From a virus, in the IMG/VR virus record IMGVR_UViG_3300025098_000317, positions 1 to 22,272 of that record: 22,272 bases of DNA, one strand, 5' to 3'. The notes below the pieces were generated by a model that saw nothing but the letters and a program-made list of their open reading frames with translations, made no database searches and was not told the origin of the DNA. A program made the translations under genes and the position numbers. Of the stretch, positions 238 through 12,020 are shown piece after piece; positions within the stretch are counted from its first letter, which is position 1; each line of letters begins with the position of its first letter.

Positions 238-447
238 TTAGCCCTCCTGCATGTTTTTGAATGGTAAAATATAGCGCTTAAAAAAAGCGTGTTCTAAGCG
301 CTTGTAACGCGTCGGACGGTTTCCAGCGGTATATTGTGCCAGCCATCGCCTGCCGTGCTTGTCAGTGGTCGCGTAACGCCCGGCAAGCCACGCGTTAAGC
401 GTTAGGTAATAATCAGCGGCGTCTTTAAATGTTTTAGGCTGTTTCAT
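238..447 (-). CDS. Hypothetical basic phage protein (69 aa)
   Basis: The ATG at 447 overlaps the TAA of the upstream 104-aa gene by one base (TAATG), and GAGGG lies 7 bases upstream (455-459), so start and operon position are well supported. The product is basic and aromatic-rich, with many Tyr, Arg, Lys and Trp residues, and has no membrane segment or cysteine pair. It ends in Glu-Gly because the ribosome site of the next gene (GGAGGGC) is read as its last codons. I do not recognise a family. Its place in a leftward cluster of small genes suggests an early or accessory protein acting on the host, which is inference only. Confidence 0.7.
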   Translation of the reverse strand: MKQPKTFKDAADYYLTLNAWLAGRYATTDKHGRRWLAQYTAGNRPTRYKRLEHAFFKRYILPFKNMQEG

Positions 448-761
448 TACTCGGCCCTCTCTTTCATTAAATCGCGGTGGTCTACCTCTGCAAGCTTTGC
501 CATCTCTAGGCGTGTCGCTGGCGGGAATAAGTCAAACCATTTACCGTTACCGCAAAACTCATGATGGTATTTTTTCGCGGCTGTTACTGCAAAATAGCCC
601 CATAGCTTCACGGCTTTTTCTTGGTCGTACTTGTCAGCGTCATATTTCTTTTGCAGATTTGCTTCAATTGGCTCGCGCTGTTGCCGGTATAGGTCGGCAT
701 CGTTTAACGCGTAAAAATAAAGCTCTGTAGCTTCGTGTGAATAGTTGTCATAAATTCCCAT
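447..761 (-). CDS. Hypothetical phage protein (104 aa)
   Basis: It starts with ATG at 761, with GGAGGG 7 bases upstream (769-774), and stops with TAA that overlaps the next start. The protein is charged and mainly helical in character. The middle (about residues 30-65) is rich in Lys, Asp and Tyr, and one short stretch, HHEFCGNGKWFDLFPP (about residues 66-81), is rich in His, Gly and aromatics and holds the single cysteine. No known domain or membrane segment is seen. It is the middle gene of the leftward operon and is presumably co-transcribed with its neighbours. Confidence 0.72.
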   Translation of the reverse strand: MGIYDNYSHEATELYFYALNDADLYRQQREPIEANLQKKYDADKYDQEKAVKLWGYFAVTAAKKYHHEFCGNGKWFDLFPPATRLEMAKLAEVDHRDLMKERAE

Positions 762-764
762 TGT

Positions 765-980
765 TTAGCCCTCCAGCTTTGTAATCTGCACCCGCCCTGA
801 TTTGGTGGTGCTTGTTTCAATTTTAATCGTCCGGCCTTCCCATCCCATGCTTACTCTGTACGCGTCAGAGATGTTCGGCTTTGTCTTCATCACTGAACCA
901 TCAGTAAAAGAGAATTGAAACGCCGGGTTTCCCCAAGCTGAGCTATTCAAGCGTTTAATTGATTTGATTGTCTTTTCCAT
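765..980 (-). CDS. Hypothetical small basic protein (71 aa)
   Basis: ATG at 980 is preceded by AGGAGGA (989-995), which overlaps the stop codon of the upstream 185-aa gene, so the two are translationally close. The product is basic and beta-strand-like, with alternating hydrophobic and Thr/Ser/Lys residues, for example the run RTIKIETSTTKSGRVQITK near the C terminus. It ends in Glu-Gly-stop because GAG GGC TAA also forms the ribosome site of the next gene. No family is recognised. A small nucleic-acid-binding or host-interaction role would fit the charge but is unproven. Confidence 0.7.
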   Translation of the reverse strand: MEKTIKSIKRLNSSAWGNPAFQFSFTDGSVMKTKPNISDAYRVSMGWEGRTIKIETSTTKSGRVQITKLEG

Positions 981-993
981 TGTTAAAATCCTC

Positions 994-1551
994 CTAGAAC
1001 AATGTTAGCTGATGAGGCTCGCAGAATAGCGAGCTTGGTAATTCCGTTGCCGGAAAGAGTAGCGCAGGCGCACCCGGCGCAGGTTGTGCGGCCTTTGGTG
1101 CTGTTGCGTGTTTGAATGGTTCTTTGATTAGGTGCGCGCGTTTTACAATCTTACGGCTTCCCCAAAAATTGCCGATTGGCTTCTTGCCTGCTTGGTCGAT
1201 GACTTCCCCATTAAGAACAGCCTGAACGTGCGTTGTGGTTGTGACCATGTAAACACAGTCCCGCTTGGTGTGCTCTCTAACGAACTTTGCAAGCGTTATT
1301 TTCGGGTCTAGGAACCCGCCGGTATTCACAGTCTCATAAGATACCTTGAGCCGGTCCAGCGCTTTGATTTGGTCGCCGGTGTATGTTCCGCCCTTCCAGC
1401 GCTTGCCATACTTGCCCGGGTTGACTGCTTTGAATGTTTGCCAAGCTTTATTAAACGAAACGCCTGTTGTGACTGCCAGAGCTGTGACGCCGCAGTTTGG
1501 ACCTTTGCGCTGGTCTTCCGGGTTTTTGAATAGTTCGGTTAGTTTTGACAT
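994..1551 (-). CDS. Papain-like (C39-like) cysteine peptidase-fold protein (185 aa)
   Basis: This is the first gene of the leftward operon. ATG at 1551 has GGAGGG at 1558-1563 and a promoter-like pair further upstream. Near the N terminus it has GPNCGVTALAVTTG (residues 17-30), in which Cys20 opens a helix, the pattern of papain-like cysteine peptidases. It is followed by His108 in TTTTHVQAVLNGEVIDQ and Asp119 eleven residues later, the expected order Cys-His-Asp. The last 35 or so residues are Pro/Ala-rich and probably flexible. Small proteins of this kind occur in phage genomes and their substrates are mostly unknown. It could be a protease, an amidase, or a transglutaminase-like fold with another activity. 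The gene call is secure; the catalytic assignment rests on motif spacing alone. Confidence 0.78.
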   Translation of the reverse strand: MSKLTELFKNPEDQRKGPNCGVTALAVTTGVSFNKAWQTFKAVNPGKYGKRWKGGTYTGDQIKALDRLKVSYETVNTGGFLDPKITLAKFVREHTKRDCVYMVTTTTHVQAVLNGEVIDQAGKKPIGNFWGSRKIVKRAHLIKEPFKHATAPKAAQPAPGAPALLFPATELPSSLFCEPHQLTLF

Positions 1552-1571
1552 CGTTAGCCCTCCAGCCAGTT

Positions 1572-1600
1572 CTTGCCTCGTTCATCTTATATGAGGCAAG
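1572..1600. repeat. 8-bp inverted repeat spanning the leftward start site (operator candidate)
   Basis: CTTGCCTC (1572-1579) and GAGGCAAG (1593-1600) are perfect reverse complements separated by 13 bases. The arms bracket the -10 box of the leftward promoter, and the left arm covers the predicted start point. This is the usual position of a repressor operator. It could instead form a hairpin at the start of the transcript. Confidence 0.5.
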
Positions 1601-1616
1601 GATTGCCGGTAGTCAA
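1586..1616 (-). promoter_or_regulatory. Leftward sigma70-like promoter for the minus-strand operon
   Basis: On the minus strand a -35 box TTGACT (1611-1616) and a -10 box TATAAG (1586-1591) are separated by 19 bases. The spacing is a little long, but both boxes are good matches. Transcription would begin near 1579, leaving a leader of about 28 bases that contains the GGAGGG ribosome site of the 185-aa gene. The geometry fits a host-RNA-polymerase promoter. Confidence 0.5.
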
Positions 1617-1679
1617 TACCCTGCAGTAAAAAAAGTTTACACCGTGGCAATAAAGCTTTAATCTGTGAGGGATTGCCGG
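1600..1679. repeat. Direct repeat GGATTGCCGG, two copies 70 bp apart
   Basis: The 10-mer GGATTGCCGG occurs at 1600-1609 and again at 1670-1679. The first copy lies in the spacer of the leftward promoter, beside its -35 box. Two identical 10-mers in a short control region suggest a protein-binding site, but chance remains possible. Confidence 0.35.
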
Positions 1680-1722
1680 GCTGTTGATATGCTTGGATGT
1701 TTTGGGATTGGATGCGCGTCAT

Positions 1723-1741
1723 TTATATATGTATATGCATA
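1723..1741. promoter_or_regulatory. AT-rich near-repeat, copy 1 (promoter candidate)
   Basis: The stretch TTATATATGT (1723-1732) is followed by ATATGCATA. An almost identical element recurs 190 bp downstream. TTGGGA at 1702-1707 lies 16 bases before TATATA, so a weak sigma70 promoter reading right is possible. A promoter for a phage-encoded RNA polymerase is the alternative. Confidence 0.35.
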
Positions 1742-1798
1742 CAGCTAACATCACCCTTGCGCGGTATAGCTAGAGCATACAGCCAGCGTGACATCTTG

Positions 1799-1823
1799 GC
1801 AACACTGTTGCGCTACTGCAACA
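1799..1823. repeat. Cluster of three GCAACA half-sites (operator candidate)
   Basis: GCAACA (1799-1804) and TGTTGC (1806-1811) make a 13-bp palindrome around one base, and a third GCAACA follows at 1818-1823. The second and third copies also form an inverted pair around a 6-base spacer. Three half-sites in 25 bp between divergent operons is typical of a cooperative regulator site. Confidence 0.4.
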
Positions 1824-1912
1824 CAGGACAGCGGCACGGTGAATGATAGAACGTACAGAACAGAGGGGGGGATGCATTTAGACCCACCACCCCCAGACGC
1901 GCGGGGCCGTAC

Positions 1913-1931
1913 TTATATATGTTAAATGCTA
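1913..1931. promoter_or_regulatory. AT-rich near-repeat, copy 2, just upstream of the small terminase gene
   Basis: TTATATATGT (1913-1922) is followed by TAAATGCTA, closely matching copy 1 at 1723-1741, with a shared CGT a few bases upstream in both. It ends 17 bases before the small terminase start, where a promoter for the packaging and structural operon would be expected. No good -35 box is seen, which leaves a non-sigma70 promoter as an option. Confidence 0.35.
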
Positions 1932-1948
1932 GGTAAAGACACACAGCC

Positions 1949-2329
1949 ATGACCAAACTCACAAAGCCGAAGACTGACCTAATACTTGCCGGTATCTCAG
2001 ATGGGCATACCATCGTCGATGTTTGCGAGGGCATTGGCATCTCACGCACGGCCTTTTACAAGCGCATGAAGAACGACCCTGAGTTTGATGCAGCGGTAAA
2101 GCAGGCACAGCAGTACAGCGCTGAGAAGGCTCTGGAGGAGCTAGACCAAGTGTTTGACGATGCTCTTCACCGAAGGAAGGATTACGATACGGGGGTGCTG
2201 CGTGACTATGCCCACCATGTCCGGTGGAAGGCCAGCAAGATATTGCCGGAGCGGTTCGGTGATTCTAAGAATAGAGCTGGGGTAGAGATAGGCGATGGTA
2301 CTGTGAAGATATTGTGGGAAACTGACTGA
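1949..2329 (+). CDS. terS: Terminase small subunit (Sf6 gp1-like family)
   Basis: This 126-aa protein recognises phage DNA and hands it to the large terminase. Residues about 19-42 form a helix-turn-helix (TIVDVCEGIGISRTAFYKRM), followed by the DPEFDAAV stretch and a helical middle region for oligomer formation. Near the C terminus, HHVRWKASKILPERFGD matches the KW-x-A-x-K-x-LP-x-x-(Y/F)G signature of Sf6-type small terminases. The ribosome site before the ATG at 1949 is weak. Its stop overlaps the large terminase start (TGATG), which ties the two in translation. Length and position fit the family. Confidence 0.88.
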   Translation: MTKLTKPKTDLILAGISDGHTIVDVCEGIGISRTAFYKRMKNDPEFDAAVKQAQQYSAEKALEELDQVFDDALHRRKDYDTGVLRDYAHHVRWKASKILPERFGDSKNRAGVEIGDGTVKILWETD

Positions 2330-3615
2330 TGGAAGTTAAAATCCCGTACAAGCCTCGCCCGATACAGGCTGACATGCACAAAGAGCTGAAGCGCTGGAAT
2401 GTGCTGGTGATGCACAGACGCTTTGGAAAGACAGTCTGGGCTGTCAATCATATGATAAAGCGGGTGCTAACCAATCCGCTACCTCGTCCTCGCGTTGCTT
2501 TGATTGCTCCTACCTTTACGCAGGCAAAACGTATTGCTTGGGACTATGTGAAGTATTACGCCGGAGTGATACCGGGTACGACATTTAACGAGACTGAGCT
2601 GCGAGCCGACTTTCCTAATGGCGGAAGAATAACTTTATTGTCTGCCGAAAACCCCGATGCGCTGCGTGGTATTTATTTAGATGATTGTTTCTTTGACGAA
2701 TATGGCATGCAAAATCCTCGGGTATGGGGCGAGGTTGTGCGCCCGGCGCTGTCTGACAGACAGGGCTCGGCTACATTTCTGGGCACCCCGGCAGGCCATA
2801 ATCATTTTTATGATATGATGCAAAACGCTAAGCGTGAACTGGGCGAGGGTTCCGAAGATTGGTATTATAGGGTCTGTAAGGCGAGCGAAACAGAGATTGT
2901 AAAGCAAGAAGAGCTGGACGCTGCTCGCGCTTCCATGACGGAAGAACAGTATCAACAGGAATTTGAGTGTTCCTTTACTGCCGCTATTATCGGCGCATAC
3001 TACGCGAAGTTGATTGCGGATGCTGAAGATGCTGGAAAGATAACTAGAGTACCATATGACCCTTCGCTTCCAGTGCATACTGCGTGGGACTTGGGCATGA
3101 ACGACAGCACAGCTATTTGGTTTGCCCAGATATTTCGTGGAGGAGCAGTTAATGTCATTGATTATTATGAGAGCTCTGGAGTTGGGCTCGACCACTACGC
3201 CGAGGTATTACGGCAAAAGGAATACCATTATGGCGACCACCTTGCGCCGCATGATATTGAAGTGCGCGAGCTGGGTAGCGGTAAAAGCCGATTAGAAACA
3301 GCGTACAATTTAGGTATTCGATTCCGTGTTATTCCAAAAATGAAGATTGCGGATGGCATTAATGCGGCACGAATGATGTTGCCCAAGTGTTACTTTGATG
3401 ATGACAAGTGCGCTGTTGGGTTGGAATGTTTAAAACAATACAGGCAGGATTGGGATGACAAAAGACAAATTTTTAGAAATCACCCTAGACACGACTTTAC
3501 TAGCCACGCGGCTGATGCGTTTAGGTACCTCGCGGTTGGACTGCAAAATAGAGAAGCTGGAGTCAGAGCTCCGCAGTCGGTTGCAGAAAATTCGTACAAC
3601 CCCTTCGCGCTATGA
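2329..3615 (+). CDS. terL: Terminase large subunit
   Basis: This 428-aa protein is the ATP-driven packaging motor with a C-terminal nuclease that cuts concatemeric DNA. The Walker A-like loop HRRFGKT is at residues 29-35, the Walker B and catalytic acid FFDEYG at about 121-126 (Asp123, Glu124), and the coupling motif LGTPAG at 151-156. The RNase H-like nuclease domain follows, with Asp254 in AWDLGMNDS, Asp309 in APHDI, and Asp396 in HAADAFRYLAVGL. All key residues of both domains are present and the length is ordinary for short-tailed phages. It overlaps the small terminase upstream and the HlyC-like gene downstream by a few bases. Confidence 0.95.
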   Translation: MEVKIPYKPRPIQADMHKELKRWNVLVMHRRFGKTVWAVNHMIKRVLTNPLPRPRVALIAPTFTQAKRIAWDYVKYYAGVIPGTTFNETELRADFPNGGRITLLSAENPDALRGIYLDDCFFDEYGMQNPRVWGEVVRPALSDRQGSATFLGTPAGHNHFYDMMQNAKRELGEGSEDWYYRVCKASETEIVKQEELDAARASMTEEQYQQEFECSFTAAIIGAYYAKLIADAEDAGKITRVPYDPSLPVHTAWDLGMNDSTAIWFAQIFRGGAVNVIDYYESSGVGLDHYAEVLRQKEYHYGDHLAPHDIEVRELGSGKSRLETAYNLGIRFRVIPKMKIADGINAARMMLPKCYFDDDKCAVGLECLKQYRQDWDDKRQIFRNHPRHDFTSHAADAFRYLAVGLQNREAGVRAPQSVAENSYNPFAL

Positions 3616-4028
3616 CGATGAATAGTGCTAAAGGCTACATGGTAGCAACATACTTGTTGAAAAGAAGTCCGTACCATAAGTATTGGACTGACTGGGACTA
3701 CGAGCTTCTTATTGTTCCTCCTGTTGAGAACGAGACTTTTGTTTGCGACTTTAAAGATGGCTTGCCTTCTATGTTTGCGACATATGCCTTTCCTGATGAA
3801 GGGCATGTTGAGGAATATTTAGAGACTGGAAGGTTCCCGCCTGACGGCTTCTATGGCATAGGCAACACCCCCTGGATTATAGATTTCATATGTCTAGGGG
3901 GCAAACGTGACATTATTAGTGGTTTCAGGTATCTTAAAGACAAGTTTATTGACATGGGATATGATAACGCCCAGTGGTTAAGAACAACCAAACATAAGCG
4001 TGGTTGGCATAAGTTAAAAGGAGTCTGA
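3612..4028 (+). CDS. HlyC-like lysine acyltransferase homologue (RTX toxin-activating family)
   Basis: This 138-aa protein resembles toxin-activating lysine acyltransferases, which move a fatty acyl group from acyl-ACP to internal lysines. Against E. coli HlyC as I remember it, the region aligns without gaps and with a constant offset of one. SPYHKYW (19-25) matches SPLHRNW, so His22 matches catalytic His23; MFATYA matches AYCSWA; EYL matches KYL. GNTPWIIDF (84-92) matches GDRKWFIDW, so Asp91 matches catalytic Asp92. The C terminus is shorter than in HlyC (about 170 aa). The start overlaps the terL stop; no clear ribosome site is seen, and a second ATG is 6 bases on, so translational coupling is likely. 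No RTX toxin is in the window, so the substrate is unknown. The family call is likely; the activity is inferred. Confidence 0.75.
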   Translation: MTMNSAKGYMVATYLLKRSPYHKYWTDWDYELLIVPPVENETFVCDFKDGLPSMFATYAFPDEGHVEEYLETGRFPPDGFYGIGNTPWIIDFICLGGKRDIISGFRYLKDKFIDMGYDNAQWLRTTKHKRGWHKLKGV

Positions 4029-4029
4029 C

Positions 4030-4644
4030 ATGGGCGGCGGTGGCGGCGGCGGTGGCGGTGATGCGAATGACGGGTTCGCTGCACCAAAAGAAGCAGCTCA
4101 AAAAAGAGCTAGAGAAAATCAAGCTAGAATTGAGCGCGGCCTTAGTACCGCTGATGCTTATAGGCAAATAAGCGAAAGACGCGATGCTGCATCAGACGGT
4201 AGCATAAAAGTAGGCAGTGTAAGCATCCCGACAACGGCTGGTGTTGTTGGTGGAGCTATCTCTAAAATGAATTTAAACAACATTGAGAAAGTGCTGAAGG
4301 GTGGCGGCAAGGCTGTTTTCTCAAAGTCTGGTACTTTGATGGGCGCTGTTGATAAATCTGGAAGGTACACTGGAAGGCCAGAAGGCGACCCAAAAGGTGT
4401 GGGTACTACAGTGTTTGGGCAAATAGACCCGCGCTCTATACCTGACGACGAGAACGCTGCCCCTTTTGAAGGGCAACAACAAAAAACACCAGAAGAGGTT
4501 GCGGCGACAGCGGCTGCTGAAGAAGAAACTATTATGACTAGGGGCCGTAAAAGAACTCGCGGTAAAAGAGCGGGACAAGGCGGTACGTTGTTAGAAGGCT
4601 ACGGTTCTCTTTATAGAGGCGGGTCTGGTAAAGGAGTAAGTTAA
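4030..4644 (+). CDS. Hypothetical polyglycine N-terminal head-proximal protein (204 aa)
   Basis: ATG at 4030 has AGGAG 8 bases upstream. After Met come nine consecutive glycines, then a charged helical stretch (about residues 18-50), a mixed beta-like middle, an acidic Gln/Ala/Glu-rich segment (about 140-170), and a very basic tail, MTRGRKRTRGKRAGQGGTLL. Glycine-rich starts like this are seen in uncharacterised phage genes near the portal. Its tail resembles that of the next gene's product (RKRG ... TLLG). It lies between the terminase and portal genes and overlaps the next start (TAATG), so a role in head assembly or DNA packaging is likely from context, but no domain is recognised. Confidence 0.75.
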   Translation: MGGGGGGGGGDANDGFAAPKEAAQKRARENQARIERGLSTADAYRQISERRDAASDGSIKVGSVSIPTTAGVVGGAISKMNLNNIEKVLKGGGKAVFSKSGTLMGAVDKSGRYTGRPEGDPKGVGTTVFGQIDPRSIPDDENAAPFEGQQQKTPEEVAATAAAEEETIMTRGRKRTRGKRAGQGGTLLEGYGSLYRGGSGKGVS

Positions 4645-4853
4645 TGAGTGTTTTTCGCCCGAAGATTCCAATGCCTCCACCGGCTCCGCCAGCTCCACCT
4701 GCCGCAGACCCTGTTGATATGGAAAGAGCCGCTGCTTTATCTGAGGAGGCAACTGCCAAGTCTCGGCGTAAGCGCGGTTCAGGTTCTACAATCGTGGCAG
4801 GTGCGCTAGGAGATTCTGGCGTAACAACCGGCACACCGACATTATTGGGGTAA
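4644..4853 (+). CDS. Small proline-rich protein with RKRG...TLLG tail (69 aa)
   Basis: The ATG overlaps the upstream TAA, and AAAGGAG precedes it. The N-terminal third is a Pro/Ala run (about residues 8-22, PMPPPAPPAPPAA in part). A short acidic helix follows, then a basic Ser-rich turn and STIVAGALGDSGVTTGTPTLLG at the end. Short proteins with a 'R-R-G-x-STI-(L/V)-x-G ... TLLG' tail are common next to the portal in podoviruses and other tailed phages, and their function is not established as far as I know. It sits 2 bases before the portal gene. A head-to-portal accessory role is inferred from position. Confidence 0.75.
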   Translation: MSVFRPKIPMPPPAPPAPPAADPVDMERAAALSEEATAKSRRKRGSGSTIVAGALGDSGVTTGTPTLLG

Positions 4854-4855
4854 AC

Positions 4856-6445
4856 ATGAGTAACTTCACCAAATCGCTTATATCTCGCTTCGATTATATT
4901 AAGGGACGCAGAGATAACTGGGACACCCATTATCAAGAACTTGCGGATTATATGCTTCCCCGTAAGGCGGATATTGTTCGTAAGCGTTCTCGCGGCGAAA
5001 AGCGTATGGAGTTTATTTACGATGGGACTGCTTTACAAGCGGTAGACCTGTTATCAGCTTCTTTGCACGGCATGCTAACCAGCGGCTCAACGCCTTGGTT
5101 CCACCTGAACATGAAAGACGCAGACATTTCTCGTGATGACGACGTTCAGGAATGGCTAGAAGACTCCAGCAATAGAATGATACAGGCGTTTAACCAGTCT
5201 AACTTTGAGACTGAAGTGCATGAAATGTACGTTGACTTGGTTGTGTTCGGTACTGGCTGTATGTTTATTGAAATGGATGATGGTAATCTTCGCTTCAGTA
5301 CACGGCACATCTCTGAGTTTTACGTCCAAGAAAACCAGTTTGGCATTGTTGATACTGTCTTTAGAAAGTACAAGTCCCCGGTTAGGCAGGTCATTCAGCG
5401 TTTCGGAATTGACAACGTAAGCGATTACATTCGCAAGAAGTTTGAAGACAAGCCGGATGAAGAAATAGAAATCCTGCATGCTGTTCTTCCGCGTATTAAC
5501 CGTGACCCGAATAAGCGTGACAACAAGAACATGCCGTATGCGTCATTTTACATTGACGTTGAGTCAGGCATGCTACTGTCAGAGTCTGGGTTTGAAGAAC
5601 TCCCATACATTGTTCCGCGCTTCTTAAAAGCAACAGGCGAAGTGATGGGCAGAAGCCCTGCTATGTCTGCGTTGCCTGATGTTAAAATGCTTAACCTAAT
5701 GTCTAAGACAATTATTCAGGCAGCTCAGAAACAAATAGACCCACCCTTATTGGTTCCTGATGACGGTTTTATTATGCCGGTACGGACACAGCCCGGTGGC
5801 CTTAACTTTTATAGAGCAGGTACAAGAGATACAATCACACCATTGCAGGCAGGTGCTAACATTCCAATCGGTCTAAGCATGGAAGAACAACGGAGAGAAG
5901 CAATCCGCTCTACGTTCTATGTAGACCAGTTACTATCTGGCGGCGCTCCTAATATGACTGCTACGGAAGTTATCCAAAGGCAGGAAGAGCGCATGAGGGT
6001 GATTGGCCCTGTTCTAGGAAGATTGATGAATGAGATGCTTCGTCCGTTAATTGACAGAGTGTTTGGGCTTATGCTGCGTCAAGAGATGCTATCAATCCCG
6101 CCGGAAAGCTTGCAGGGCAGAGATATTGATATTGAATATGTATCACCTCTTGCCAGAGCGCAGAAGTCTACTTCACTTAATGGCACAATCAAAGCCCTTG
6201 AGGTTCTTCTTCCGCTTGCTCAATCATTCCCTGTTGGCGACCATATAGACCCTGATGGTCTTGTTCGTCATATTACTGAATCTCTCGGTGTTCCAAAGAC
6301 AACTCTTCGCTCACAAAGAGAAGTGGACGAGGCAAGGCAACAGAGGGCAGCGCAGGAACAGGAGATGGCAGAGCGTCAACAGACAACTGAAGACGTTGCA
6401 AATATAGCGCAAGGCGCACAAGCAGTAAGGATGTTAGGCGAGTAA
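4856..6445 (+). CDS. Portal (head-tail connector) protein
   Basis: This 529-aa protein matches the T7 gp8-type head-tail connector family, a 12-subunit ring at one capsid vertex through which DNA enters and leaves. Typical features are the N-terminal RRDNWDTHYQELADYMLPRK, the DGTALQAVDLLSASLHGMLTSG segment (about 57-78) containing the conserved S-x-L-x-G-x-L-T pattern, the TPWFHL motif, and the FLKATGEVMGRSPAMSALPD region (about 257-276). The wing and crown region with NMTATEVIQRQEERMRV follows, and the C terminus is Gln/Glu-rich and helical. The length is normal for the family (T7 gp8 is 536 aa). GGGG lies 6 bases before the ATG. The stop overlaps the next start. Confidence 0.93.
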   Translation: MSNFTKSLISRFDYIKGRRDNWDTHYQELADYMLPRKADIVRKRSRGEKRMEFIYDGTALQAVDLLSASLHGMLTSGSTPWFHLNMKDADISRDDDVQEWLEDSSNRMIQAFNQSNFETEVHEMYVDLVVFGTGCMFIEMDDGNLRFSTRHISEFYVQENQFGIVDTVFRKYKSPVRQVIQRFGIDNVSDYIRKKFEDKPDEEIEILHAVLPRINRDPNKRDNKNMPYASFYIDVESGMLLSESGFEELPYIVPRFLKATGEVMGRSPAMSALPDVKMLNLMSKTIIQAAQKQIDPPLLVPDDGFIMPVRTQPGGLNFYRAGTRDTITPLQAGANIPIGLSMEEQRREAIRSTFYVDQLLSGGAPNMTATEVIQRQEERMRVIGPVLGRLMNEMLRPLIDRVFGLMLRQEMLSIPPESLQGRDIDIEYVSPLARAQKSTSLNGTIKALEVLLPLAQSFPVGDHIDPDGLVRHITESLGVPKTTLRSQREVDEARQQRAAQEQEMAERQQTTEDVANIAQGAQAVRMLGE

Positions 6446-6642
6446 TGAACGAAGTAGATAAGCTACGCGAAATGTATAAGCAGGCCTTCACTAGTGACAG
6501 TGGGGTAATAGTGCTAAAGGATTTGGAGGCTCGCTCTAATTGGCGAACTTCAAGTTATGTGGCAGGCGATGCTAATGCCACAGCTTTCGAGGAGGGTAAG
6601 CGTATGGTTATCCTTCACATTTACAACATGATGCAGGAGTAA
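6445..6642 (+). CDS. Bbp19-like small phage protein (65 aa)
   Basis: This 65-residue protein starts inside the portal stop codon (TAATG). The run YKQAFTSDSGVIVLKDLEAR (about residues 11-30) followed by GDANATAFEEGKRMVILHIYNMM (about 41-63) matches the Bbp19-like family found in podoviruses between portal and scaffold genes: Y-x-x-x-F-x-(S/T)-x-x-G, V-L-x-D-L, GD-x-x-(A/T)-x-x-x-EG-(K/R)-R. Its function is unknown. The position suggests a head-assembly accessory protein. It is 2 bases from the scaffold gene and shares its transcript. Confidence 0.8.
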   Translation: MNEVDKLREMYKQAFTSDSGVIVLKDLEARSNWRTSSYVAGDANATAFEEGKRMVILHIYNMMQE

Positions 6643-6644
6643 TT

Positions 6645-7484
6645 ATGTCTGAAGAGAATGTCGAACAGGTAGCCCAGCCAGAAGCTACGTTGGAAACACC
6701 AGCGGAAGTTGCTACAGGCGGGTCTGGTAACGATTTTTTATCAATGATTCCAGAAGAGCTACGGGAAGACCCTAGTTTAACGTCTATCAAAGATGTTTCT
6801 AATCTAGCCCGGTCTTACGTCAACGCACAGAAGTTAATTGGTGCTGACAAGATACCGTTGCCGGTAAACCCTACGGACGAAGACTTAGACCGTATTTATG
6901 GGAAGCTCGGCAGGCCAGAAGATTCCAGCGGGTACAGTATCGAAATTGACGGGAATATTGTTACCGAAGACGTTGCATCTCAGTTTAGTGAAGTAGCCCA
7001 CAGCCTTCGCCTAAACCCAGACCAAGCAAAGGGCATACTTGATTATTACAAGTCTAGCATACAGCAAGGCGTAGAAGCTTCAGCGGATGTTGTCTCGCAA
7101 CGCCGGGAAGAGGCCGAAGGTGCGCTTCGCCAAGAATGGGGCAGAGCATTTGACCAAAAGGTTGAGCAAGCTGCAAAGGCGGCACAAGAATTTGCTGGCG
7201 AAGATGTTTTTAATATCGAATTAGCTGATGGCTCTAAGCTTGGTAACAACACTGATTTTGTCAAAGCATTTGCAAAAATTGCTGATTTTAGGCAAACTGT
7301 CACAAGTGAGGACACTGTTTCTGAAAGTGCGGCAACGGGGATAATGACACCCAAGGCAGCTCAAGCAGAGATTGATGCAATCATGCGTGACAAGTCTCAT
7401 GCTTATTGGGACAAGAAACACGGTGCGGGGCATGAAGAAGCTATCCGCAAAATGCAAGAATTGATGGGTATGGTTCATGGATAA
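6645..7484 (+). CDS. Capsid assembly scaffolding protein
   Basis: This 279-aa acidic, helix-rich protein lies directly before the capsid gene, as T7 gp9 does. The pattern FLSMIPEELREDPSL (about 31-45), then LARSYVNAQKLIGADKIPLP and the LGRPEDSSGY stretch (about 88-97), is characteristic of podovirus scaffolds. The C-terminal part contains SHAYWDKKHGAGHEEAI, seen in the same family, and a helical C terminus that would contact capsid subunits. Scaffold is used during procapsid assembly and leaves before or during packaging. AGGAG precedes the ATG. The last 8 bases overlap the next gene. Confidence 0.9.
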   Translation: MSEENVEQVAQPEATLETPAEVATGGSGNDFLSMIPEELREDPSLTSIKDVSNLARSYVNAQKLIGADKIPLPVNPTDEDLDRIYGKLGRPEDSSGYSIEIDGNIVTEDVASQFSEVAHSLRLNPDQAKGILDYYKSSIQQGVEASADVVSQRREEAEGALRQEWGRAFDQKVEQAAKAAQEFAGEDVFNIELADGSKLGNNTDFVKAFAKIADFRQTVTSEDTVSESAATGIMTPKAAQAEIDAIMRDKSHAYWDKKHGAGHEEAIRKMQELMGMVHG

Positions 7485-7707
7485 GCTAGATAAAATCCAA
7501 ACCCGCCTAGACTGTTTACGTTTGGCAATAGAATTTGGTTCTATGCGAGACGTATTAAATCCGGCCCAACTCGCAGACAATTACTACGATTGGGTTATGA
7601 GGGGTAGCGAGGCAACTCGTCCCGGAGACAATCGGAAAGACGATAGCCACAAGTCGGCTAAAAAGACTAGGAGTGTCCGTGCGTCGGGTAGCACACTGCA
7701 AAGCTAA
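7477..7707 (+). CDS. Hypothetical small protein between scaffold and capsid (76 aa)
   Basis: The ATG at 7477 lies inside the end of the scaffold gene, giving an 8-base overlap, which favours coupled translation. The first half, MDKLDKIQTRLDCLRLAIEF and then LADNYYDWVMRGS, is helical and resembles small phage proteins with an RL-x-x-LRLA ... A-x-x-Y-x-WV pattern. The second half is basic, Ser/Lys/Arg-rich and probably disordered. No function is known to me. The strong ribosome site of the capsid gene begins 19 bases after its stop. Confidence 0.68.
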   Translation: MDKLDKIQTRLDCLRLAIEFGSMRDVLNPAQLADNYYDWVMRGSEATRPGDNRKDDSHKSAKKTRSVRASGSTLQS

Positions 7708-7725
7708 AATGTAAACGTGAAACTT

Positions 7726-7734
7726 AAAGGAGGA
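7726..7734 (+). promoter_or_regulatory. Very strong ribosome binding site of the capsid gene
   Basis: AAAGGAGGA lies 4 bases before the capsid ATG at 7739, the best match to the 16S rRNA anti-Shine-Dalgarno sequence in the window. This fits the need for hundreds of capsid copies per virion. Confidence 0.85.
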
Positions 7735-7738
7735 CATT

Positions 7739-8614
7739 ATGTCCACAGAAGTAACCACCGCGTTTGTACAGCAGTATTCAGCTAATGTGCAGATGCTATC
7801 TCAGCAGATGGGTTCCCGTCTGCGCGACGCAGTTCGCATTGAAAATGTTGTTGGTAAGAACGCTTTTATTGACCAAATCGGTGCAGCAACTGCACAGGTT
7901 CGGACAACTCGTCATGCTGACACACCACAGATTGACACACCACACTCACGGCGTCGTCTAACTTTGGCAGACTACGAGTACGCTGACCTGATTGATGACC
8001 AAGATAAGGTTCGCATGCTGATTGACCCGACTTCATCTTACGCTATGGCAGCAGCAGCAGCTATGGGTCGTGCGATGGATGACGTAATCATTGCGGCAGC
8101 TCTTGGTACAGCAGCAACAGGCGAAACTGGTTCTGGCACACAAGCCATTACTCAGACTGTTGTAGAAGGCAACACTAACTTGACGCTGGCAAAGCTGCGT
8201 GAAGCTAAGTTTAAGCTGGATTCAGGTGACGTTGACCCATCACTTCAGCGCTACATTGCTGTCGGACCAAGCCAGATTCAAGCTCTGCTTGCCGATACTA
8301 ATGTGACTTCAAGTGATTTCAACTCAGTCAAGGCACTCGTTCAGGGTGAGCTAGATACCTTCATGGGCTTCAAGTTCATTATGACAAACCGCCTTGCCAC
8401 ATCTGATGGTTCTGAAACTGATGACATCCGCGATTGCTTTGCATGGGCGGAAGACGGTATCACACTGGGCCTCGGCAAAGACATCTCAGCTCGCATTGAT
8501 GAGCGTGCAGATAAAAGCTACGCAACTCAGGTGTACTACTGCATGTCACTAGGTGCGGTTCGCATGGAAGAAGCAAAGGTTGTTAAAATCCTTTGTGACG
8601 AATCTCCAGACTAA
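7739..8614 (+). CDS. Major capsid protein
   Basis: This 291-aa protein forms the icosahedral shell. Its identity rests on position (after scaffold, with the strongest ribosome site, and before a terminator) and on sequence features of HK97-fold podovirus capsids. These include an N-terminal helix (FVQQYSANVQMLSQQ), the VRTTRHADTPQIDTPHSRRR loop region (about 54-73), LADYEYADLIDDQDKVRMLIDPTS, an Ala-rich spine-helix-like run (AMAAAAAMGRAMDDVIIAA), and a C-terminal stretch AWAEDGITLGLGKDI. It is somewhat shorter than T7 gp10A (345 aa) and has no visible frameshift extension. The terminator follows 7 bases after the stop. Confidence 0.92.
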   Translation: MSTEVTTAFVQQYSANVQMLSQQMGSRLRDAVRIENVVGKNAFIDQIGAATAQVRTTRHADTPQIDTPHSRRRLTLADYEYADLIDDQDKVRMLIDPTSSYAMAAAAAMGRAMDDVIIAAALGTAATGETGSGTQAITQTVVEGNTNLTLAKLREAKFKLDSGDVDPSLQRYIAVGPSQIQALLADTNVTSSDFNSVKALVQGELDTFMGFKFIMTNRLATSDGSETDDIRDCFAWAEDGITLGLGKDISARIDERADKSYATQVYYCMSLGAVRMEEAKVVKILCDESPD

Positions 8615-8620
8615 TATTGC

Positions 8621-8649
8621 GAGGGGGCGAGAAATTGCCCCCTCCTTTT
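8621..8649 (+). terminator. Rho-independent terminator after the capsid gene
   Basis: GAGGGGGC (8621-8628) pairs perfectly with GCCCCCTC (8637-8644) around an 8-base loop, followed by CTTTT. It begins 7 bases after the capsid stop. Placement directly behind the capsid gene parallels the T7 terminator after gene 10. The T-run is short, so partial read-through into the tail genes is likely and would set the capsid to tail ratio. Confidence 0.85.
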
Positions 8650-8661
8650 AAGGGGTGAGAA

Positions 8662-9012
8662 TTGGAATATAACAGCGACTTCCGATACGACTTAAAGGTT
8701 GGTCAAATAGAGGAAGAATGGTTAGGCGAGCTGTTACAATCGAAGACCCTAGAGGTCAAAAGAGATTTCAGGGCTTCACAGACAGGTAATGTGTTTGTGG
8801 AGTTTTTTTGTAGAGGCAAGCCTTCCGGGATAGCTACAACACAAGCTAACCATTGGGCGTTTATATTAGACGACGGAATTGTTATAATGCTGCCAACAGA
8901 ACGTCTGAAAGACTTAGCAAGAGAGGCAGCAAAAGCAGGCGATATAGTTCTTGGTGGTGACAATAACACTAGCAAGGGCGCATTGGTGAAAGTGGCGAGG
9001 TTGATAAAGTAA
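8662..9012 (+). CDS. Predicted PD-(D/E)XK-like nuclease-fold protein (116 aa)
   Basis: The frame starts at TTG (8662), with AAGGGG 6 bases upstream. No ATG occurs until residue 76, so the TTG start is needed. The protein has an acidic first helix (VGQIEEEWLGELL, Glu17-19), TLEVKRD (29-35, with Glu31, Lys33 and Asp35), a strand VFVEFF (Glu47), and GKPSGIATTQANHWAF (52-67). A helix with Glu, an EVK-x-D strand and an S-G-I-x-T-T-x-A-x-x-W block is a combination I associate with small phage members of the restriction-endonuclease-like fold. The exact metal-binding set cannot be fixed by eye. It is the first gene after the capsid terminator and overlaps the next start. A role in DNA processing is possible; a structural role is not excluded. 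Confidence 0.72.
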   Translation: MEYNSDFRYDLKVGQIEEEWLGELLQSKTLEVKRDFRASQTGNVFVEFFCRGKPSGIATTQANHWAFILDDGIVIMLPTERLKDLAREAAKAGDIVLGGDNNTSKGALVKVARLIK

Positions 9013-9608
9013 TGGCATCCGTTGTTGATATTTGTAATGAAGCTATGGACTTGCTGGGCGCGGCAACTATTACCTCGCTAGCAGAAAACTCCAAAGAAGC
9101 GCGTTTGTGTAACCGGCGATTTGAAACAGTCAGAGACACTGTGCTGCGCTCGCACCCCTGGAATGTAGCAATCACAAGAAAACAGCTTGCAAAAGACTCC
9201 GAGGTTCCAGCCTTTGGTTTCTTGAGCCAGTTCACTTTGCCTTCTGACCCTTACTGTTTGCGGGTTATGTCGCTACACACATCAAACGTAGATAACGAAA
9301 TTGCCCCATACGATACGCAATCAATGTTTAAGATTGAGGGACGCAAGGTATTAACAGACGAAGATAGCTGTCGGATTATCTATATAGCTCGCGTAGAAGA
9401 CACTGAGCAGTATGATGCGTCTTTATCTAATGCTATCGCTTACAGATTAGCAGCGGAAACATCCTACGCTATCACTGGGAGCACCAGCGTCTCGCAGCAA
9501 ATGTTTGCTCTTTTTGAGTCAAGATTAAGGGAAGCTCGGTCGATGGATGCTATCGAAGGCAAGCCGGACAGAATTATCACAGAAGACTTTACGAACATAA
9601 GGCTGTAA
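9012..9608 (+). CDS. Tail tubular protein A / head-tail adaptor (T7 gp11-like)
   Basis: This 198-aa protein forms the ring that joins portal and nozzle. The N terminus, SVVDICNEAMDLLGAATITS, followed by ARLCNRRFETVRDTVLRSHPWNVAITRKQL, is the standard signature of gp11-type adaptors (N-E-A-L-x-x-L-G, then RD-x-x-L-R-x-HPWN-x-A-x-x-R). Length is typical (T7 gp11 is 196 aa). The ATG overlaps the upstream stop (TAATG), with GAGGT as ribosome site. The nozzle gene follows 3 bases later. Confidence 0.92.
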   Translation: MASVVDICNEAMDLLGAATITSLAENSKEARLCNRRFETVRDTVLRSHPWNVAITRKQLAKDSEVPAFGFLSQFTLPSDPYCLRVMSLHTSNVDNEIAPYDTQSMFKIEGRKVLTDEDSCRIIYIARVEDTEQYDASLSNAIAYRLAAETSYAITGSTSVSQQMFALFESRLREARSMDAIEGKPDRIITEDFTNIRL

Positions 9609-9611
9609 GTC

Positions 9612-12020
9612 ATGGCAAGAGTTTCGACCATTGTTACCAACTTTAAGTCTGGTGAGCTATCGCCACGGCTGGAAGGTCGCATCGACTTAACAAAGTATAA
9701 CGAAGCTGCCCAGACAATATCTAATATGCTGGTGTATCCTTCGGGCGGCGCAACGCGCAGGCCCGGCACATACTTTGCTGGCAGAAGTAAAGATGGCGGC
9801 AAGGTTAAGCTTGTTAATTTTGAGTTTAGTGATGAGCAAGCATATATCCTCGAGTTTGGCGCAAACTATATCCGTTTTTTCAAAGACGGTGGAATACTGA
9901 CTGAAACAACTACTTCCATAACAGCAATAACCCAAGCAAGCCCCGCTGTCGTAACAGCCGCCGGGCATGGTTTTTCTAACGGAGATAGAGTTTTTATCTC
10001 AGGTGTTGCAGGAATGTCACAGTTAAATAACTTAGAGTTTACTGTTGCAAACCAGACAACCGATACTTTTGAGCTGACCGGCATAGATAGCAGCGGATAC
10101 AGCGCTTACACATCGGGCGGTGCGGTGGGAAGAATTGTTGAAGTAGCTACGACCTACAGCGTTACGGATATATTCGAAATAAACCATGCTCAGTCTGCTG
10201 ATGTTCTTTACATGGCGCACAAGGACCATGCACCAGCAAAGCTAACAAGAACGACGGCAACATCCTTTACCTTAGATGATATTGATTTTGTTGATGGCCC
10301 GTACCTTGATGAGAACATTACAGACACAACTATCTATGCTTCTTCTGATACAGGTAGCGTAACTATTACCGCTTCTGCTGATTTATTTACGAGCGGTGAC
10401 GTTGGCAGGCTAATTCGCCTGAGAGAAGTTCTGGAAATACATTATGATGTTTGGTCGGCAAACACTAGCTATAACAATAACTCTTTTGTTCGGTATGATG
10501 GTCATGTTTACAAGCAAGTTTCTGGCAGCACAGAAACGTCTAATAATACTCCACCTGTCCACGTTGAAGGCACAGAGACTTACGGAGACATAGACTGGCA
10601 ATACAGACACGACGATACAGGTTACGCAGAGATAACAGCTTTTACTAACGCGACTACTGTAACAGCTACTGTTAAGGAAGATGATGGCGGTATCAGTGTG
10701 TTGCCACACAACACGATTGGTTCAGGAAACGCGACAAAGAAGTGGTCACTAGGAGCCTTCGGCGGCGACCAAGGATTCCCAAGGGCTGTGGCATTTTACG
10801 AACAGCGTTTGTACTTTGCTGGCACAACAGGGCAACCGCAAACAATATTTGGTTCTGTTTCTGCTGACTTTGAGAACCACACGCCGGGCACAGAAGACGA
10901 CGCAGGCGTAAACATTACTATTGCTTCTGACCAAGTAAACGTAATCAAACACTTACTGCCGGGCCGGTTCTTGCAGATACTGACAACTAGCGCAGAGTTC
11001 ACCTTATCTGGTGGTACTGGTGCCACGCCTGTCACACCGACTAACGTAAATGTGCTCCGTGAAACCACATTTGGTACATCTCAGGTGCGGCCTCTTCGTG
11101 CAGGTAACTCAACCATTCTTATTCAAAAAGGTCAGGAGAAAGTTAAAGAGATTACCTTTGACTTAGACACCGATGGGTTGCTTGGTATTGATTTAACTAT
11201 TCTAGCTGACCACATACCACGCGGCGGATTAAGTGACATGATATGGCAACAAGAGCCAGAGCTTGTTATCTGGTTTGTACGCAATGATGGAGAGCTTGTT
11301 GGCCTAACTTATGACAGAGCAAACGCAGCTATAGGCTGGCATACTCACAACATTGGTGGAAACGGCTTTGTAGAAAGTGTCTCTGCAATCCCAAGCGGGG
11401 CAGAAGACCAAGTATATGTTTCTGTAAAACGCACAATAAACGGGGCCACTGTCAGGCATATCGAGTACCTGAAAACAATAGACTTTGGAAGCAACACAGA
11501 AGATGCGTTTTTTGTTGATAGCGGCTTAACATATAGTGGCTCAGCTACAACGACCATCAGCGGTCTAAATCATTTAGAAGGTGAAGAGGTAAACATACTT
11601 GCTGATGGCGCAACGCACCCAAACAAAACAGTTACTGATGGCGAAGTTACGCTAGAGAGAAGCGCAAGCAAAGTTCACATTGGGTTTGGTTACACATCTT
11701 TATTAGAGACATTACGCTTAGAAGCAGGGGCTGACGATGGCATCTCTCAAGGAAAGATAAAAAGAATACATGGTGTGACTGTAAGGTTCTTAGAAACTGT
11801 TGGTGCTGAAGTAGGCCCGAACATTAGTAACTTGGACAGAATACCATTCAGAGACAGTAGTATGAGCATGGATGAAGCGGTCCCTAGTTTTTCTGGTGAT
11901 AAGGAAGTGTTCTTTCCTTCCGGGTATGACAATGACGCCAGAGTTGTAGTTAGGCAAACACAGCCTTTACCTATGACTATTACGGCTATTATACGGAGGT
12001 CTAATACATTTGACGTATAA
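9612..12020 (+). CDS. Tail tubular protein B / nozzle (T7 gp12-like)
   Basis: This 802-aa protein forms the distal tail nozzle that gates DNA exit. The N terminus FKSGELSPRLEGRIDLTKY, with SGGATRRPGTYF (44-55), is the hallmark of gp12-like nozzle proteins. Two inserted beta-modules are visible. Residues about 103-172 (GHGFSNGDRVFISGVAGM ... ELTGIDSSGYSAYTSGG) form the FCCH-like module often found in phage tail proteins. Residues about 281-331 (from WSANTSYNNNSFVRY to a DWQY strand) resemble a small carbohydrate-binding module. Length is close to T7 gp12 (794 aa). It overlaps the next start by 11 bases. Confidence 0.92.
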   Translation: MARVSTIVTNFKSGELSPRLEGRIDLTKYNEAAQTISNMLVYPSGGATRRPGTYFAGRSKDGGKVKLVNFEFSDEQAYILEFGANYIRFFKDGGILTETTTSITAITQASPAVVTAAGHGFSNGDRVFISGVAGMSQLNNLEFTVANQTTDTFELTGIDSSGYSAYTSGGAVGRIVEVATTYSVTDIFEINHAQSADVLYMAHKDHAPAKLTRTTATSFTLDDIDFVDGPYLDENITDTTIYASSDTGSVTITASADLFTSGDVGRLIRLREVLEIHYDVWSANTSYNNNSFVRYDGHVYKQVSGSTETSNNTPPVHVEGTETYGDIDWQYRHDDTGYAEITAFTNATTVTATVKEDDGGISVLPHNTIGSGNATKKWSLGAFGGDQGFPRAVAFYEQRLYFAGTTGQPQTIFGSVSADFENHTPGTEDDAGVNITIASDQVNVIKHLLPGRFLQILTTSAEFTLSGGTGATPVTPTNVNVLRETTFGTSQVRPLRAGNSTILIQKGQEKVKEITFDLDTDGLLGIDLTILADHIPRGGLSDMIWQQEPELVIWFVRNDGELVGLTYDRANAAIGWHTHNIGGNGFVESVSAIPSGAEDQVYVSVKRTINGATVRHIEYLKTIDFGSNTEDAFFVDSGLTYSGSATTTISGLNHLEGEEVNILADGATHPNKTVTDGEVTLERSASKVHIGFGYTSLLETLRLEAGADDGISQGKIKRIHGVTVRFLETVGAEVGPNISNLDRIPFRDSSMSMDEAVPSFSGDKEVFFPSGYDNDARVVVRQTQPLPMTITAIIRRSNTFDV

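Follow-up and report, generated by a model that had tools for sequence, protein, structure and literature searches.

What might a small protein with a papain-like Cys-His-Asp signature do during infection when its gene lies opposite the terminase genes of a virus? We addressed this question in a virus record of 22,272 bases (IMGVR_UViG_3300025098_000317; GC 46.9%), hereafter the window, meaning the whole stretch of DNA that was analysed. The reading to which we give about even weight is that the protein is a papain/C39-like cysteine peptidase, or a close cysteine hydrolase, carried to the DNA replication fork by the beta clamp of the host. The first-pass annotation had seen in the same gene a papain-like protein that could act on host proteins early in infection. 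It read the observation correctly and its interpretation is partly supported; it missed a C-terminal clamp-binding motif, in view of which a link to replication is more likely than action on host proteins in general. The features of the gene are collected in Table 1.

Table 1. Features of the cysteine protein gene and its downstream neighbours in the window.
Feature	Positions	Strand	Basis
Papain-like cysteine protein gene, 185 aa	994..1551	-	ORF with ATG at 1551 and ribosome-binding-like GGAGGG at 1563-1558, 6 nt before the ATG; relatives in viral contigs
Predicted papain/C39-like core, residues 8-142	1126..1530	-	AlphaFold model; VIA Z of about 10 to C39 and staphopain chains
Cys20 codon, putative nucleophile	1492..1494	-	93/93 members; N-terminus of helix 20-29 in the model
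His108 codon, putative general base	1228..1230	-	93/93 members; directly before strand 109-113 in the model
Asp119 codon, putative third triad residue	1195..1197	-	93/93 members; end of strand 116-119 in the model
Pro/Ala-rich linker (residues 143-180); flexibility presumed from about residue 151	1012..1125	-	pLDDT block means 55-70 from residue 151
C-terminal QLTLF, residues 181-185, beta-clamp (DnaN) binding motif by sequence	997..1011	-	Motif defined according to PMC11139829 and PMC9690074 (passages)
Three small genes (71, 104 and 69 aa) downstream of the peptidase-like gene	238..980	-	Same strand; neighbours of the gene in some relatives as well (tblastn, loci partly overlapping)

The open reading frame was confirmed, with Cys20 (in GPNCGVTALAV), His108 (in THVQAV) and Asp119 at the positions first assigned to them. 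The plus strand of the window carries terminase and head-tail adaptor genes, and the TerL DNA is nearest to that of Pelagibacter phages such as HTVC010P (70% over 207 nt). The peptidase-like gene is on the strand opposite the terminase genes in the window, as it is in all 28 loci with a C-terminal QLxLF in which both terminase genes were located and in two more in which only TerS was located. Downstream, the 71-aa protein has a weak match to phrog_20597. Phages use papain-fold enzymes for lysis or maturation, and this favours a virion structural, processing or lysis enzyme; we regard such a role as very improbable for a gene that runs against the terminase strand, lies among replication genes in the relatives of clade 3 and encodes a clamp motif.

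The gene had also been pictured at the head of its operon behind an operator-like promoter, and here the data disagree. The promoter signals are not above chance (one sigma-70-like site against 0.8 expected, and an inverted repeat of 75%), and the first position is not general, with an ORF of 74-78 aa just upstream in L002, L003, L008, L010-L013, L015 and L019. The nearest upstream ORF in the window and its near-twin L001 has 46 aa. The early timing that went with this picture is likewise not supported. Separately, we observed TTATATATGT at positions 1913-1922 of the window and again at 1723-1732, 190 bases apart, between divergent genes.

A query with the protein alone brought up three close relatives among the viral contigs, and tblastn found seven phage records, those of Roseobacter phage CRP-902 and of Sphingomonas phages, in which the protein is annotated as hypothetical. 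Two profile scans of viral contigs confirmed 112 and 97 relatives, mostly on the same contigs; 80 from each were kept, and 9 new ones were added from the second. Bacterial genomes (one per species, 84,980 species) yielded two loci, both in Devosia (L085 and L086) and both without the tail, and no relatives were found in plasmids. The resulting alignment comprised 93 members, namely 87 contig loci, the window, three phage proteins and two Devosia proteins. L014 and L142, truncated by contig ends, were left out. The start codons of the relatives were chosen by a script and may be wrong in places. A core tree was built from residues 8-142, excluding the tail, and held 68 rows after reduction at 97% core identity.

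C20, G21, G54, Y101, H108, D119 and Q120 are invariant in all 93 members, none of which lacks Cys20. For Cys20 and His108 this result is in part a product of the search, because the patterns used to scan the contigs covered the peptides around them. Neither Asp119 nor Gln120 belonged to any scan pattern, yet both are invariant, and C20, H108 and D119 are also kept in the relatives from Sphingomonas and Roseobacter phages, which tblastn had found. Among family profiles, the unannotated phrog_3754 was matched by 48 of the 54 scanned members, and by the window protein at 1.3e-6. The window protein had no match to a Pfam family or in PADLOC and only chance-level matches in NCBIfam (E 0.11 and 0.15). 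The Pfam family Peptidase_C39_2 matched a single member of the 54 (E 0.072), which does not place the proteins in the C39/papain sequence family. A sequence search of solved structures returned only antibody chains for the single protein (E 0.16 or worse) and nothing for the profile.

AlphaFold, run on an alignment of 54 members, gave a model of the window protein with a pLDDT of 87.8 and a pTM of 0.78, in which 138 residues score at least 90, residues 71-90 average 81-84 and the tail from residue 151 falls to 55-70. Cys20, His108 and Asp119 fall at or next to the ends of the helix and strands listed in Table 1, as in papain-like enzymes. In VIA-align, the model scored Z 10.2-10.4 against C39 and staphopain chains, among them the C39 protease domain of PCAT (6mpz; Z 10.4, 120 aligned, 3.3 A), ComA (5xe8; Z 10.4, 116 aligned, 2.9 A) and staphopain C (8oig; Z 10.3, 127 aligned, 3.3 A), and the papain/C39-like fold with its Cys-His-Asp order, as first proposed, is thus supported at the level of a model. 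A second model, of a clade 3 member, has the same predicted fold (pLDDT 80.5; 6mpz Z 10.9, 122 aligned, 3.1 A). Foldseek against the PDB had no row at E 0.001 or better; its top rows (E 3e-3 to 8e-3) were the phytochelatin synthase Alr0975, in first place, the ComA C39 domain and staphopains. Among viral models (BFVD), the Sphingomonas phage Kharn relative ranked first (E 1.3e-10); in 12th place came a Bacillus phage protein that is labelled Peptidase C39.

C39 and papain enzymes usually use an oxyanion Gln six residues before the Cys. The corresponding position 14 is Q in the window protein but in only 25 of the 93 members, most of which have Ala, so that peptidase chemistry is not assured. 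We regard the predicted fold as a known one and file the protein as a papain-like variant, not as a C39 member, because the oxyanion Gln is not conserved and the family profiles do not recognise the protein.

Papain-like folds carry out many reactions, and the enzyme might act on DnaN or on a client of the clamp as a deamidase, a transferase or a de-conjugating hydrolase, modifying its target without cleaving it. The variable oxyanion position fits this alternative, as does the top Foldseek row of Alr0975 (E 3e-3); the highest VIA rows are C39 peptidases and staphopains, but these are near ties, and the fold says little of the chemistry. We consider other cysteine chemistry unlikely overall, and still a serious competitor of the peptidase reading.

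The C-terminus of the protein bears on where such an enzyme would act. The bacterial beta-clamp motif is described, in passages of reviews and a transposase study, as QL(S/D)LF or QLxLF, often C-terminal, with QLNLF in Pol V (PMC9690074, PMC4549789, PMC11139829), and one of these passages defines it as Q-aliphatic-x-[LM]-[FL] in a disordered segment (PMC11139829). The QLTLF that ends the window protein fits this definition by its sequence and sits in the low-confidence tail. On the core-only tree, two groups around the window (20 and 5 rows) have a C-terminal QLxLF in all 25 rows, and no other row has it; in the full alignment it is present in 31 of 93 members. The 17 QLxLF members that share less than 90% core identity have T, S, M, L, A or N in third place and use varying synonymous codons for Q, L, L and F. 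An ending of the form Q[LMIF]xLF was found in none of 1904 other ORFs (at least 80 aa, mechanical six-frame calls in the family loci). The linker before the motif is 27-65 residues long, with a median identity of 38% against 49% for the cores in the 16 members compared; the linkers have diverged just somewhat further than the cores, and common descent thus explains part of the presence of the motif. We read these patterns as suggesting a motif kept by selection, with shared descent not fully separated from it and a single origin possible. The window and L002 have almost identical tails on less similar cores, which may reflect a recent exchange.

The tails hold further elements. A second conserved motif, [ST]LFP[ASH]LF, lies 10-12 residues before QLxLF in L015, L019, L022, L023, L028, L029, L030, L036, L043 and L070, and might perhaps be a second docking site; the tail of the window protein has only possible remnants of it (LLFP and SSLF). 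In two of the 93 rows, L015:4007-4621 and L030:1352-1978, and in these alone, the linker before QLxLF contains a zinc-ribbon-like CxCG-x9 or x12-CxC.

The distribution of QLxLF also bears on whether the protein is an ordinary peptidase of host proteins, acting early and bearing no relation to replication, with an incidental C-terminal motif. The fold, the triad and the position of the gene in a cluster of small genes would all suit such an enzyme. We nevertheless judge it improbable, for it leaves aside the constancy of the motif across the two tree groups, with synonymous codons and no counterpart among the other ORFs, as well as a similar N-terminal motif in one relative, L069, and the polymerase III gene upstream in clade 3.

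L069 lacks the tail; it starts with MSRTKFQIEQFDLFDF behind AAGGAG and has QFDLF near its N-terminus. This motif has Phe in second place, where the published definition calls for an aliphatic residue, and no motif is present in L133, the neighbour of L069 on the tree. An N-terminal position has a precedent in Hda, whose clamp motif is also N-terminal according to a passage of PMC11139829.

Members of clade 2 (L049, L058 and L078; also L117, L143 and L150) have tails that end in Q[TV]FGLPLF (HVFGLPLF in L150) and a few further residues, across divergent cores. The FGLPLF tail is present in 20 of the 22 rows of its core-tree group, and the two exceptions are CRP-902-like. As a clamp motif FGLPLF is a plausible candidate on which our reading does not rely, with Gly in place of Gln, a replacement that lowers affinity according to the part of PMC11139829 that treats this position. 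Among 115 alphaproteobacterial genomes, Q.FG[LF]P[LF]F had four matches; no recognisable clamp client was among them, and three fell in short frames (17-36 residues). The shorter pattern FG[LF]P[LF]F had two matches in two Devosia genomes, one of them inside a permease-like ORF.

Members of clade 3, a sister clade, carry an extra C-terminal domain and no clamp motif. The extra domain has no Pfam or PHROGs match. Its model resembles winged helices of RPC39 (2yu3; Z 7.3 over 63 residues) and PriA (4nl4; Z 6.6 over 61 residues), weakly and below the caution level of 8 given for the tool, and a predicted likeness of this kind with Z under 8 can be a common arrangement. In the window protein, no DNA-binding domain was seen. 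By eye, the winged-helix-like domain of clade 3 seems to recur in a protein of L179 (7692-8261).

We then compared the ends of the proteins with the polymerases encoded beside them. Matches to PF00476, PF00136 and PF07733 were sought in 53 records (50 viral-contig relatives, the window, CRP-902 and Kharn), many of which are fragments. A polymerase was found in none of the 16 QLxLF records, nor in the single QFDLF record or the 17 FGLPLF records; the records without a match include three QLxLF records of 33-34 kb and the 35-kb record of L069. The window, itself one of the 16, is a 22-kb record that may be a fragment. In clade 3, polymerase III alpha was found in all 12 records (L032 assigned by hand). 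All 13 clade 3 contigs, some of them near copies, have its gene upstream of the peptidase-like gene and in the same orientation, at a distance of 90-113 nt in six and 724-1294 nt in seven.

L179 has PF07733 together with finger and PHP domains, and an exonuclease-like gene (PF00929) precedes its polymerase; its region 607-11762 (phage record G018) encodes a replication set of Pol III alpha, a DnaQ-like exonuclease, a UvrD-like helicase and an AEP primase. A simple pattern search found no clear clamp motif in this Pol III alpha or in the neighbouring exonuclease. Among other members without a motif, PolA was found in L046 and L047, and the annotation of Sphingomonas phage Kharn lists a polymerase of the PolB family, although the PF00136 match falls below the cut-off, as well as a beta clamp of its own. 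Neither motif nor polymerase was found in L082, L133, L156 and CRP-902, the last of which has a Prim-Pol protein. The beta-clamp family PF00712 was matched in none of 40 records, Kharn being outside the 40.

Counted by record, a polymerase is thus found in 0 of 34 with a motif and 15 of 19 without (Fisher p 6e-10), where the 34 include the 17 doubtful FGLPLF records and Kharn is counted by its annotation. The contrast is not phylogenetically independent: the tree holds 3-4 independent contrasts, and a sign test on them is not significant. A published passage on pelagiphages describes Skadi-1 as without a DNA polymerase and HTVC010P-type phages as predicted to rely on that of the host (PMC10504331), and this reliance agrees with the three QLxLF records of 33-34 kb in which no polymerase was found. 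By its TerL DNA match, and with no polymerase found in what may be a fragment, the window may belong to a phage of this type.

Taken as a mechanism, our preferred reading is that the QLTLF on its flexible tail would dock in the partner pocket of host DnaN. Such phages appear to lack a DNA polymerase of their own, so that the host replisome would copy the phage DNA; with that replisome apparently in use, the enzyme would travel with the clamp and cleave proteins that it encounters at the fork. Candidate substrates would be host proteins tightly bound to DNA, other clients competing for the clamp, or defence proteins. Since these phages could not use a host in which Pol III is disabled, the range of possible substrates is limited. 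The gene, the conserved Cys, His and Asp, the predicted fold, the terminal motif and the polymerase III gene upstream in clade 3 can be read from the sequences, and from these we infer the clamp binding, the proteolysis, the substrates and the timing.

The same tail could serve a protein that cuts nothing, filling the DnaN pocket while the core adds bulk and thereby excluding the replication and repair clients of the host. Such blockers have precedents: phage DnaN binders that shut off host replication, Twort gp168 and G1 gp240, are tabulated in the relevant part of PMC3594737, and the toxin SocB acts in this way in Caulobacter according to a passage of PMC9690074. A canonical clamp motif is what such a blocker would need, but it would not explain a Cys/His/Asp/Gln site kept in 93 of 93 members, those without a motif included, and it would suit poorly phages that appear to need the host polymerase. 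We hold a non-proteolytic blocker to be rather unlikely; together with other cysteine chemistry on a clamp client, a plain blocker in the manner of Twort gp168, as tabulated in that part of PMC3594737, is nonetheless a chief rival of the tethered-peptidase reading.

The nearest known systems share either the core or the anchor of the protein. The C39 domains of PCAT1 and ComA and the staphopains, of clan CA, have the same predicted core fold and the Cys-His-Asp order. Unlike them, the phage protein has no useful sequence match in the PDB or Pfam and no conserved oxyanion Gln, and where they are part of a transporter or a secreted enzyme, it has a clamp motif instead. As for the anchor, Pol II, Pol IV, Pol V, Hda and IS transposases are described in the passages we drew on as having QLxLF at a disordered terminus, as in the phage protein, and the QLNLF given there for Pol V also occurs in L022, L030 and L070. 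The clamp binders named in these passages are polymerases, regulators and transposases, with no cysteine peptidase among them. Twort gp168 and G1 gp240 are likewise phage proteins aimed at the host clamp, and the part of the source that lists them mentions no enzyme domain for either. The Kharn relative, the nearest viral model, has no clamp motif, unlike the window protein.

The closest likeness of function is with the eukaryotic proteins SPRTN and FAM111A, which, as passages of PMC7067828 and PMC9240642 describe them, join a protease, a clamp-binding box and a DNA-binding domain. The phage proteins would resemble them in pairing a predicted protease domain with a putative sliding-clamp box, which in clade 3 is replaced by a DNA-binding-like domain. 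SPRTN and FAM111A are metallo- and serine proteases of unrelated folds that bind PCNA, not DnaN, and the likeness is one of function only; we claim no homology. A literature search among open-licence papers did not find a papain-like enzyme combined with a clamp anchor in a phage.

More tentatively, and with somewhat less confidence than we place in the window protein alone, we propose a family of replisome-tethered cysteine peptidases. One module would be joined to interchangeable anchors, namely QLxLF at the C-terminus, QFDLF at the N-terminus, perhaps the FGLPLF tail, or a winged helix where a phage Pol III is encoded upstream, and would strip host proteins from replicating phage DNA. It would be the third independent clamp-anchored protease, after SPRTN and FAM111A.

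To conclude, if the proposal is true, the unannotated phage family phrog_3754 would gain a testable role, and a phage would be seen to reach the host sliding clamp by means of an enzyme and not of a plain blocker. The family would then parallel, in prokaryotes, the human proteases SPRTN and FAM111A, which work at the fork, and from its substrate one could tell which proteins of the host stand in the way of phage replication there.
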